Assembly: GCA_903874965.1 (NCBI GenBank)
Contig: CAIQUD010000004.1
Span: forward strand, 1-64,000
From: an uncultured Actinomycetes bacterium
GTDB lineage: Bacteria > Actinomycetota > Acidimicrobiia > Acidimicrobiales > RAAP-2
Direction: 5' to 3'
DNA length: 64,000 nt
Every line of letters begins with the position of its first letter. Positions within the stretch are counted from its first letter, which is position 1. The notes below the pieces were generated by a model. The model made no database searches, was not told the origin of the DNA, and saw only the letters and a program-made list of their open reading frames with translations. Made by a program: the position numbers and the translations under genes. Shown here piece after piece: positions 53,142 to 56,738 of the stretch.

Positions 53142-54065
53142 ATGCCAGAGCCGGTTGCGAGTTCACCGTTTGACCAGCTCAAAGGGACCGTTGGTCTTTG
53201 GACCTTCGCTCACGAGTTTGTTGCACCACAAGCCGCTGGAGATTTTGCCAAGAAGATCGAAGATCTTGGCTATAGCTCGTTGTGGTTCCCTGAGCTCATT
53301 GGTCGTGAGGCATTCACCAGCGCCGCACTGTTGCTGGCGGGCACGTCATCACTCATTGTTGGCACCGGTATTGCCTCGATCTATGGCAGAGACGCACTCG
53401 CAACTGCCGCAGCTGGACGAACGCTCGCTTCAGTGAGCTCCAATCGATTCATCGCGGGTCTCGGAGTTAGCCACCGACCAACCGTTGAAGGATCGAGGGG
53501 GCACACCTACGAGCCACCGCTCGCGGCAATGGAGAACTATCTCGATGCCCTTGGCGCCGCAACGAGTTTCTCCGTTGAGGCAAAGGTCAAGCTGCCCGTC
53601 GTGCTCGCTGCCCTCGGTCCAAAGATGTTGACGCTTGCACGCGACAAGGCCGATGGTGCACTGCCCTATCTCGTCACCGAGGCCCACACCGCAAGCGCTC
53701 GAGCAACGCTTGGACCAAATGCCTTTCTCGCCGTTGAACAAGCGGTCGTCTTGAGCAATGACAAGGACGAAGTCAAGCGCCTTGCTCAAGAGCATCTCGG
53801 CATTTACACCGGTCTCGAGAACTATCGCAATAGTTGGAGGCGCCTTGGTTTCGGCGACGCTGACTTTGTTCGTGGAGGCAGTGAAGCGCTACAACAAGCT
53901 CTCGTTGCCTCCGGCGACGTCGAGCAGATCAGCGCCAAGGTCGATGCACATTTTGCTGCCGGTGCCGATCATGTCTGCCTTCAGGTCCTTGGGACTGGAA
54001 CGTCCGAACTCGCACCAATGGAGCAATGGAAGACGCTCAGTGAACTGACGAAGGCGAAGCGGTGA
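53142..54065 (+). CDS. LLM-class F420-type oxidoreductase
   Basis: A 307-residue LLM-family protein. Features: LWFPELIGREAFTSAALLLAGT, VGTGIASIYGRDALATAAAGRTLAS, VLAALGPKMLTLARDKADGAL. The GGAGACAGCGA RBS precedes the ATG. It overlaps the SRPBCC gene by 4 bp (GTGA), suggesting shared substrates. Confidence 0.88.
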   Translation: MPEPVASSPFDQLKGTVGLWTFAHEFVAPQAAGDFAKKIEDLGYSSLWFPELIGREAFTSAALLLAGTSSLIVGTGIASIYGRDALATAAAGRTLASVSSNRFIAGLGVSHRPTVEGSRGHTYEPPLAAMENYLDALGAATSFSVEAKVKLPVVLAALGPKMLTLARDKADGALPYLVTEAHTASARATLGPNAFLAVEQAVVLSNDKDEVKRLAQEHLGIYTGLENYRNSWRRLGFGDADFVRGGSEALQQALVASGDVEQISAKVDAHFAAGADHVCLQVLGTGTSELAPMEQWKTLSELTKAKR

Positions 54066-54583
54066 GCTCAATGACGAGACGATTCACTCGGATCAGAATT
54101 TCCCAGACGATTGAGGCACCCCTCGCGGTCGTTTGGGAAGAACTTCGACAAATCGACCGCCACGTGCTCTGGATGAAGGACGCCGTCTCAATCACCTTCA
54201 CCACCGACCAGCATGAAGGCGCCGGCACCGCGTTCATCTGCAAGACAAAGGTTGGACCATTTCGGACCAACGACAAGATGTGGATCACCGAGTGGATTGA
54301 GGGTCGACAGATTACGGTCCACCATCAGGGACTGATTACCGGCGCCGGACGCTTCGCACTTCGGGGAGAGCACGGACGACACTGTGTGCTGCGTTGGGAA
54401 GAGCGGCTTGAATTTCCCTGGTGGCTCGGCGGTCCGCTCGCAGGGATCGTGGCAAAGCCAATCCTGAAGCAACTTTGGATTCGAAATCTTGATCGGTTTG
54501 GCGAACTCATTCTCAGGGGAATGGAGCAATCTGCCCTCGACAAGCGTGGCGACGAGGATCCTCAGAATCCAGAAGGCGAGTAA
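54062..54583 (+). CDS. SRPBCC-family (START-like) protein
   Basis: A 173-residue SRPBCC protein (polyketide cyclase/dehydrase or START-like fold). SQTIEAPLAVVWEELRQIDRHVLWM begins the fold, ending in a long amphipathic C-terminal helix (WIRNLDRFGELILRGMEQS). It binds a hydrophobic ligand. Start GTG 54062 overlaps the LLM stop; ATG 54071 is the alternative. It overlaps the convergent coiled-coil gene by 22 bp. Confidence 0.8.
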   Translation: MSSMTRRFTRIRISQTIEAPLAVVWEELRQIDRHVLWMKDAVSITFTTDQHEGAGTAFICKTKVGPFRTNDKMWITEWIEGRQITVHHQGLITGAGRFALRGEHGRHCVLRWEERLEFPWWLGGPLAGIVAKPILKQLWIRNLDRFGELILRGMEQSALDKRGDEDPQNPEGE

Positions 54584-56457
54584 CGCTCCTCAGCGCCGTG
54601 TGACTCGGCGACTGGGGTCGCATCAAGTACGTGGTGACCAAGTGTGTCGGCAGTGTTCACCGTCAAGACAGCGCCTTCGGATGCCTCACCTAGTTCTACA
54701 AATGCCAGTGCTGCGGCGGCCTCTGCATCAGCAGCCTCCGCCAATGCTTTGATCTTCGCCGCTTCCTTTGAGGCCGCCTTCTTGGCCTTGGCCTTAGCCT
54801 TCTTCTTCGCTCGCTTCAGCTTGGCCTTGGCCTTCTTCTTGGCCTTCTTCTTCGCCTTGGCCTCCTCCTTGGCGCGATCCTTCGACGATCGCACAATGAC
54901 GACGAGGTGTTCCGGCTCTTCATCGCTGACTACGTCAGGAGCGATCGGCGCGACGTCAAAGGCCTCGAGAAGTTCATGCCAGGCTTCGTCATCTAGCTGC
55001 CGGACAAGCTCAGGGTCAATGGGCTCTTCGGCAAGATTCGCGCTCTCTTTCCAACGCCGGATGAGTTCACGAGCCTCAGTCAGCACGTTCTCGTTACCCT
55101 CTGTCAGCACTTCGAGAAGTGAGATGCATTCGGCGTAGGTGGCCTCCAAGATGCGATGCCGTTCGATCTGGGCTTCGGCATTCACCGAGGCAACTTGACC
55201 TTGAGCAGAGGTCAAAAGGAGCTGGCGTTCGGTGTCGGCTTCTTCCATGATTCGCGCGCACTCAACGCGTGCAGCTTCAACGAGGCCGCTACTCGCCTGC
55301 CTGGCGGCGTCAGTAATCGCCGAAGCCTCTTCTTCGGCTTCAGCGAGGACTTCAGCGGTGATTGGCTTCAAGCGCGTCAAGGCCTCTTGCAGCACTCGCT
55401 CGGCATCAGCTTCGGCCTCGAGGCGAACTTCGTCGGCGATCTTTCGAGCTGCTTCGAGCGCTGCTGCTTGCTCTTCTTCGCTTTCCGTGTTCGCGGAAGC
55501 GAGGACTCCCTCGGTGATGGTCCGTGCACGGAGCAGCGTCTCAATGCGCACTCGTTCCGCATCGGCTTCGGCTTCGGCCATGATTCGGTCGACGATCCTT
55601 GATGCCTCGGCCAACCGTTCCGCTGCTTCCTCCGCAGCCGCCTCCGTCAACTTTTCGGCTGCAAGTTCGGCTGCGGTTGCAAGGTGTTCAGCCGCAGTGC
55701 GTGCAGCAGACGTCAAGTCATCCGCTTCGTGCTTCGCAGCGGTTGCCACGGCAAGCGCCTCTCGCCGTGCGGTTGCTTCGATCGCCAACGCCTCAACTTG
55801 AGCCGAAGCAAGAACGAGCCCAATCGCAGTAGTCGTTTGCTCCACGACGTCTTCGTCCGCGACCTCTTCTGCGTCATCGGCCTGCATGACGTCATTGCCA
55901 TCAAGGAGTAAAGCCCCGGCAGGGGGCGTATTGGAAGCGTCATCAGTGAGCTGATCGATGGAAGTGATGCTTTCGACGTCGGGGGCGTCGTTTGGTGTCG
56001 CGCTGGTGTCGGAAACGGTCAGTGCTTGAACTTCATCGAATGCCGCTGATTCATCAACATCTGCGATGAGTTGGTCGAGACCGAGCGGACCGCTTGTCGC
56101 GACGCGTGCGTGCGAATGAAGGCGATTCTCGCGCTCAATCGCCCAACCTCGAAGTTCCACCATCCGTCGCGAATCCGCAGGTTCCCATTGATTCTTGATG
56201 ATCGCAACCATGAGTGCATCAAGGACTTCAGGATCAACTTCAGTCGACAACAACGGGCGGAGCTCTGCGCTGAACTCTGCGACGCCGCGCTCAGCAATGA
56301 TGTTGATCGCCGCTACTCGGTTTTTTGGATTGGGATCTCGAAGGGCGGAACGGACTCTTCCAGCTCCCTTTGACAGGTAAACGAGCCTCCAAAGCAGGAC
56401 GGCAACTATCAGCACCGCCGCACCGATGACTATCGCGTACTTGATCGTGTTCGACAT
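54562..56457 (-). CDS. Membrane-anchored HEAT-like/coiled-coil protein with Lys-Ala tail region
   Basis: A 631-residue protein with no recognised family. An N-terminal transmembrane helix (KYAIVIGAAVLIVAVLLWRL) precedes a HEAT-like repeat at about 33-90 (LRDPNPKNRVAAINIIAERG, VDPEVLDALMVAIIKN). An acidic linker follows, then an alanine/glutamate-rich coiled coil (about 215-465) with repeated EAEADAERV and AAEEAAERLAEAS heptads. Near the C-terminus (about 535-575) lies a run of alternating Lys and Ala (AKKKAKKKAKAKLKRAKKK). The overall plan resembles DivIVA- or polar-scaffold-like proteins or nucleoid/DNA-tethering proteins. Function is unknown. Confidence 0.75.
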   Translation of the reverse strand: MSNTIKYAIVIGAAVLIVAVLLWRLVYLSKGAGRVRSALRDPNPKNRVAAINIIAERGVAEFSAELRPLLSTEVDPEVLDALMVAIIKNQWEPADSRRMVELRGWAIERENRLHSHARVATSGPLGLDQLIADVDESAAFDEVQALTVSDTSATPNDAPDVESITSIDQLTDDASNTPPAGALLLDGNDVMQADDAEEVADEDVVEQTTTAIGLVLASAQVEALAIEATARREALAVATAAKHEADDLTSAARTAAEHLATAAELAAEKLTEAAAEEAAERLAEASRIVDRIMAEAEADAERVRIETLLRARTITEGVLASANTESEEEQAAALEAARKIADEVRLEAEADAERVLQEALTRLKPITAEVLAEAEEEASAITDAARQASSGLVEAARVECARIMEEADTERQLLLTSAQGQVASVNAEAQIERHRILEATYAECISLLEVLTEGNENVLTEARELIRRWKESANLAEEPIDPELVRQLDDEAWHELLEAFDVAPIAPDVVSDEEPEHLVVIVRSSKDRAKEEAKAKKKAKKKAKAKLKRAKKKAKAKAKKAASKEAAKIKALAEAADAEAAAALAFVELGEASEGAVLTVNTADTLGHHVLDATPVAESHGAEERYSPSGF

Positions 56458-56548
56458 GACCTGCCTCCGTGACCGACGTTCACGCGCAACTACACGCGGA
56501 GGACACCAAAATTTACCAGACGTCGATGGAAAATTCGCCCTTCTCCTC

Positions 56549-56554: not shown

Positions 56555-56576
56555 CTCGCTGGAGAGAGGTGTGGAC

Positions 56577-56738
56577 GTGAGTGAGCAAGCCAGTGAACGA
56601 GCACTTCAAGCAACCGTTGAGGCGTTGACGGCCGAAATTGCGGCGCTCAAATTGAAGGTGAAAGAGCTCACGGCGAGAAACGAAGCACTTTCACGTCAAG
56701 CGAATGACCAGCGATTCGAACGTCCTCCGCACTATTGA
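56577..56738 (+). CDS. Small coiled-coil protein
   Basis: A 53-residue protein from the GTG at 56577 (MSEQASERALQATVEAL), preceded by GAGAGG. The ORF track begins 36 codons earlier at another GTG with no RBS. It is a single amphipathic coiled coil (LTAEIAALKLKVKELTARNEALSRQ). It is divergent from the large coiled-coil gene and convergent with a GT2 gene, overlapping it by 7 bp. Small coiled coils like this often act with larger scaffold proteins; that is a suggestion only. Confidence 0.6.
   Translation: MSEQASERALQATVEALTAEIAALKLKVKELTARNEALSRQANDQRFERPPHY

Follow-up and report, generated by a model that had tools for sequence, protein, structure and literature searches.

A membrane-anchored HEAT-repeat protein of a freshwater actinobacterium and its putative origin in an exosortase operon

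An uncultured freshwater actinobacterium carries, within the 64,000-nt stretch of DNA analyzed here (the window), a gene for a protein that combines a transmembrane (TM) helix with HEAT-like repeats, an acidic linker, a coiled coil of about 250 residues and a Lys/Ala-rich (KA) run. The locus raises the question of what such a protein is and where it comes from. The initial annotation knew of no family for it and saw in it a candidate membrane-to-nucleoid tether or polar organizer. Its coordinates and strand for the 631-amino-acid open reading frame were correct, and the domain order it gave was borne out by AlphaFold2, by the HEAT_2 match, by the periodicity of the coil and by the Lys count (Table 1). 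The ATG start codon is preceded by a Shine-Dalgarno-like GGAGG. The gene encodes a real membrane-anchored protein.

Architecture and conservation of the window protein

The AlphaFold2 model of residues 1-120, built from a three-row alignment (mean pLDDT of 81.6), placed the HEAT helix pairs at 44-57/60-72 and 76-88/97-119, with pLDDT values mostly about 90. In the full-length model (mean pLDDT of 70.2, pTM of 0.36), the linker is disordered over residues 118-199, the coil consists of two helices, 199-321 and 327-451, separated by a break at 322-326, and a further helix, 526-604, includes the KA run. The hydrophobic residues of the coil recur with a period of 3.69 (power of 19.0 versus at most 9.1 among 500 shuffles), while the heptad period of 3.5 reached a power of only 1.1; the coil is therefore a hendecad (11/3) and not a heptad. 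The KA run contains 17 Lys per 30 residues, the runner-up among the 61 genes of the window having 5. From the positive-inside rule, the C-terminus is predicted to be cytoplasmic.

Table 1. Coordinates of the features at the TM-HEAT locus (G numbers denote genomes of relatives)
Feature	Position in window	Strand	Basis
Whole gene, TM-HEAT + hendecad coil + Lys tail	54562-56457	-	631 aa; orthologues in G001, G002, G004
TM helix, residues 1-39, followed by basic residues	56341-56457	-	AlphaFold2 helix 3-39 and sequence
Two HEAT repeats, residues 44-119	56101-56328	-	AlphaFold2; HEAT_2 in 12/12 homologues; HEAT/alphaRep as best fold and profile matches
Acidic linker, disordered, fast-evolving, residues 120-198	55864-56100	-	pLDDT <50; 32% identity to G002
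Ala-rich hendecad coiled coil, residues 199-451	55105-55863	-	Model and periodicity
Helical module ER..xLE.TYAE..xLI...G...L..AR.LL, residues 427-478, overlapping the coil end	55024-55179	-	7 orthologues
Acidic tract, then hydrophobic patch LVVIVR, residues 479-523	54889-55023	-	Tract and VVIV(R/K)-type patch in 8/8 orthologues
Lys/Ala tail, residues 524-571, predicted helical	54745-54888	-	Net charge +19 in 45 residues
Ala-rich variable end, residues 572-631	54565-54744	-	41% identity to G002; dN/dS 0.34
SRPBCC-like gene, convergent with TM-HEAT and overlapping its 3' end	54062-54583	+	Weak Pfam Polyketide_cyc2 match; synteny
AATTTACCAGAC, 12-bp element between the divergent genes	56510-56521		Invariant in 4 genomes
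SlyX-like microprotein, about 53 aa, ending FERPPHY	56577-56738 (start 56571 or 56577)	+	Pfam SlyX, E 2.8e-5

The protein is about 80% identical to its orthologue in G002, and this identity is unevenly distributed. It rises to 94% in TM-HEAT and to 99% in residues 381-500, where synonymous sites are saturated, and the KA tail is 83% identical at likewise saturated synonymous divergence. With dN/dS values of 0.029 for the TM+HEAT part and 0.033 for the proximal coil, the comparison with G002 reveals strong purifying selection and therefore a functional protein rather than a chance open reading frame. The Ala-rich end is the least constrained part of the protein, the linker excepted, although its final residues, RYSPSGF, are common to both sequences.

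The whole architecture is shared with the orthologues in G001, G002 and G004. The coil is shorter in those of G022, G031 and G189 and absent from the homologue in G003, a genome of the same genus, and must thus be dispensable for the basic role. The acidic tract, the VVIV(R/K)-type patch and a basic tail were kept in all eight sequences compared; the tail of G031 and that of G189 consist of just KKKKK or KKKKKK. The module at the coil end, which belongs to the 381-500 segment with 99% identity to G002, recurs in seven orthologues, including those of G022, G031 and G189; it was matched by motif, as global alignment of the coil regions puts the short orthologues wrongly. The Ala-rich C-terminal end described in the initial annotation is present but poorly conserved, and the acidic-VVIVR-Lys unit preceding it had been missed.

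The tiny divergent gene noted upstream is also real and is conserved in G001, G002 and G004, and by its C-terminus in G003, but its start probably lies at 56571 or 56577 and not at 56469. Its match to SlyX (PF04102) scored 25.1 bits, below the 30-bit gathering cutoff. The element AATTTACCAGAC in the intergenic region is a candidate promoter or operator that the two divergent genes may possibly share. As a separate observation, a DivIVA-domain protein of about 540 amino acids, found at locus L119 (contig C58 of G000) and also at L117 and L120, ends in GHRHPPVHAGCRC, a sequence that presumably resembles the C-terminal end of minor head proteins of the phage Mu F type.

TM-HEAT and the exosortase operon

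Single-sequence scans of Pfam, NCBIfam and PADLOC yielded no curated family that covers the window protein, in agreement with the initial annotation. Matches to FliH, TolA, V-ATPase G and SR-25 were judged compositional; that to TolA (TIGR02794), for instance, reached 18.7 bits against a cutoff of 59.45 and involved the KA run only. HEAT_2 (PF13646) was matched by all 12 N-terminal homologues at E values of up to 1, each weakly, the best homologue reaching 1.8e-7 and the window protein 2.4e-4 (21.8 bits versus the Pfam cutoff of 27.7). A profile of these 12 homologues matched designed HEAT-like alphaReps in the PDB (best E value of 2.7e-9), and a Foldseek search with the N-terminal domain gave nothing at E <0.001, its top matches being mostly HEAT, ARM or alphaRep folds. 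Having both antiparallel helix pairs and a HEAT profile match, the domain qualifies as a HEAT repeat. Our TM+HEAT profile (A1) matched positions 1-111 of the window protein, which was among its seeds, with an E value of 2.7e-50, and the unseeded G189 protein with an E value of 2.1e-46. The TM and HEAT parts together constitute an actinobacterial module without a name, here referred to as TM-HEAT.

Profile A1 detected the module in 18 of the 172 genomes of the family and, patchily, across the class. Either directly upstream of TM-HEAT or in the same chain, we found an exosortase-like protein with the motifs SPSCSSL, GN..R and HDWVG, which exceeded the TIGR04178 cutoff in the three examples scanned. 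A tblastn search with the cluster of G031 established the usual order in Acidimicrobiia: PIG-L deacetylase, PgaC-like GT2, exosortase, TM-HEAT, PRK12767-like ATP-grasp, WecB and HAD. The ordered operon is seen at L066-L070 and in part at L071 and L072, for which a PIG-L match was absent from the listing. At L022 and L076, TM-HEAT is convergent and placed after HAD. In some genera TM-HEAT is fused to ATP-grasp (L025-L028), and in others (L075, L077 and L078) a single protein of about 840 residues unites the exosortase, two HEAT copies and ATP-grasp; these natural exosortase-HEAT-HEAT-ATP-grasp fusions suggest that the activities work together. A GT2, an exosortase and a HEAT-ATP-grasp fusion were found in G590, which belongs to another class of the phylum. 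At the GC-rich loci L023 and L025-L028, genes were placed by profile and tblastn searches. Overall, loci of the exosortase operon (L066-L072, L075-L078, L022, L025-L028 and L131) were observed in Acidimicrobiia and one other class. A search of a limited collection of papers returned no account of this operon, of an exosortase with a HEAT partner or of exosortases in Acidimicrobiia.

In 61 relatives, the generic exosortase family PF09721 lay next to TM-HEAT in G031 only. Because PF09721 misses this divergent subfamily, we built our own exosortase profile (A2) and took E values below 1e-30 as strong matches. All 19 genomes with a strong match (12 from the family plus a further 7 from the class sample) also carried TM-HEAT, a co-occurrence that is partly ascertained because A2 was seeded with loci adjoining TM-HEAT. 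When the family genomes that seeded A2 were left out, the overlap was 6/6 (hypergeometric p of 3.5e-8, the genomes not being phylogenetically independent). About 10 genomes with only weak A2 matches were without TM-HEAT, except for one marginal match in G298. TM-HEAT recurs as the partner of a single exosortase subfamily. G021, G284, G289 and the window's genus carry TM-HEAT but no strong exosortase match. At the G021 locus (L023:7535-10358), a TM-HEAT gene with no coil converges on a separate gene whose product is an Arg/Ala-rich coiled-coil protein with a weak DivIVA match.

The window's genus and the proposed role

None of the five genomes of the window's genus (G000-G004), one of them 97% complete, encodes an exosortase of this type. 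The operon is absent from the window TM-HEAT locus, where there is no room for it since the SRPBCC-like gene and TM-HEAT overlap by 22 nt, nor was an ATP-grasp partner observed next to TM-HEAT in the genus. Two GT2s, DUF2142, RmlC and a nucleotide-sugar epimerase are encoded next to TM-HEAT, whose neighborhood with GT2 genes, RmlC and the epimerase is conserved. The initial annotation had suggested looking for synteny with division or segregation genes; the context of the module consists instead of exosortase and envelope-glycan genes.

In the tree, the window TM-HEAT grouped with those of G022, G031 and G189 (support of 85/88), which are the closest relatives of the window's genus and all retain the operon. 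In G022, it comes after a homologue of the very SRPBCC gene bordering TM-HEAT in the window. The G022 contig with the operon ends inside the HAD gene, and a second contig opens with a truncated TM-HEAT; the two contigs (C73 and C153) both break off at the expected junction and share no end sequence. The operon therefore likely once lay between SRPBCC and TM-HEAT and was then lost in the window's genus, a reading that takes the G022 contigs to be joined in this way. After the loss, TM-HEAT likely persisted as an orphaned adaptor under strong selection, and its coil expanded. Alternatively, the window gene may never have been part of an exosortase operon, TM-HEAT being a general adaptor that exosortase operons and this lineage each recruited separately. 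The genomes listed above that have TM-HEAT without a strong exosortase would fit such a history, but we consider it unlikely, given that the nearest relatives of the window TM-HEAT have the operon and that in G022 it adjoins the same SRPBCC gene.

On balance, we regard it as probable, by a modest degree, that the gene encodes a cytoplasm-facing membrane HEAT adaptor derived from the TM-HEAT of an exosortase/envelope-glycan operon. The cytoplasmic location of the HEAT domain is suggested by the positive-inside rule together with the fusion to an ATP-using domain. More tentatively, the TM-HEAT family may link, within an envelope-glycan operon, an exosortase of actinobacteria with an ATP-grasp ligase in the cytoplasm, and in the window's genus the adaptor may have outlived the exosortase, been remodeled into an extended membrane scaffold and gained a new partner. 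In the mechanism envisaged for the HEAT adaptor, the N-terminal helix would anchor the protein in the membrane and the HEAT repeats would offer a docking surface for a partner enzyme, while the hendecad coil, at about 18 nm per helix, might oligomerize or serve as a long spacer. The acidic-VVIVR-Lys end could make electrostatic contact with an anionic partner such as membrane lipid, a polyanion or an acidic protein. The net effect would be to organize envelope-glycan enzymes such as those encoded by the neighboring genes. What looked like an orphan with HEAT repeats and a coiled coil would thereby become a testable component of the exosortase system, whose accessory proteins and link to exopolysaccharide have so far been poorly understood, and the window's genus would provide a case of an adaptor that stays under strong selection after the loss of its enzyme.

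Comparison with other scaffolds and known systems

The polar-organizer reading of the initial annotation would make the protein a membrane-anchored hendecad scaffold that gathers the polar growth machinery at the pole or septum, like Scy, FilP or DivIVA. Scy and FilP have an Ala-rich hendecad coil, as does the window protein, while DivIVA, Scy and FilP are defined by an N-terminal DivIVA-like domain with RGYDxxEVD (PMC9858780). The G022 orthologue matches Wag31 weakly (E value of 8e-4), and the separate coil gene convergent with TM-HEAT in G021 would also be in keeping with such a function. Against it, the window protein did not match the DivIVA family of Pfam at an E value of 0.1, and its Wag31 match (E value of 0.43) covers the coil only; on reading the sequence, the RGYDxxEVD-type N-terminus is absent. 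Moreover, the genome already carries two DivIVA-family genes, the coil is missing in G003 and the neighborhoods read showed no linkage to division genes. The reading thus gained no positive support, and we hold it to be distinctly unlikely. It is less likely still that the protein tethers the nucleoid, with the tail bound to DNA or RNA and the TM helix seated in the membrane: the tail has the KA-rich composition of HU/H1-like DNA-binding tails and keeps its basic charge across eight orthologues and its sequence in G002, but the genome's own HU protein lacks such a tail, the run shrinks to KKKKK in orthologues, the preceding acidic tract could pair with it and the gene context is one of envelope glycans; nothing speaks positively for this proposal.

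Returning to the proposed membrane HEAT adaptor, its closest parallels are the exosortase/archaeosortase systems (TIGR04178; XrtS-like) that are associated with exopolysaccharide genes, in that TM-HEAT repeatedly adjoins or is fused to a TIGR04178 exosortase in the company of a PgaC-like GT2, WecB, ATP-grasp and PIG-L. It differs from the enzyme of these systems in not being an exosortase itself, and the window's genus lacks that exosortase. With HEAT_2 proteins, including the designed alphaReps, TM-HEAT shares its two helical pairs; unlike them, it has only two repeats, joined directly to a TM helix. The extended Ala-rich hendecad coil is common to the window protein and Scy, FilP and DivIVA, except that TM and HEAT stand in place of their N-terminal DivIVA-like domain. 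Finally, the small divergent gene resembles the SlyX family, its short coil and PPHY-type end aligning to the end of the profile.
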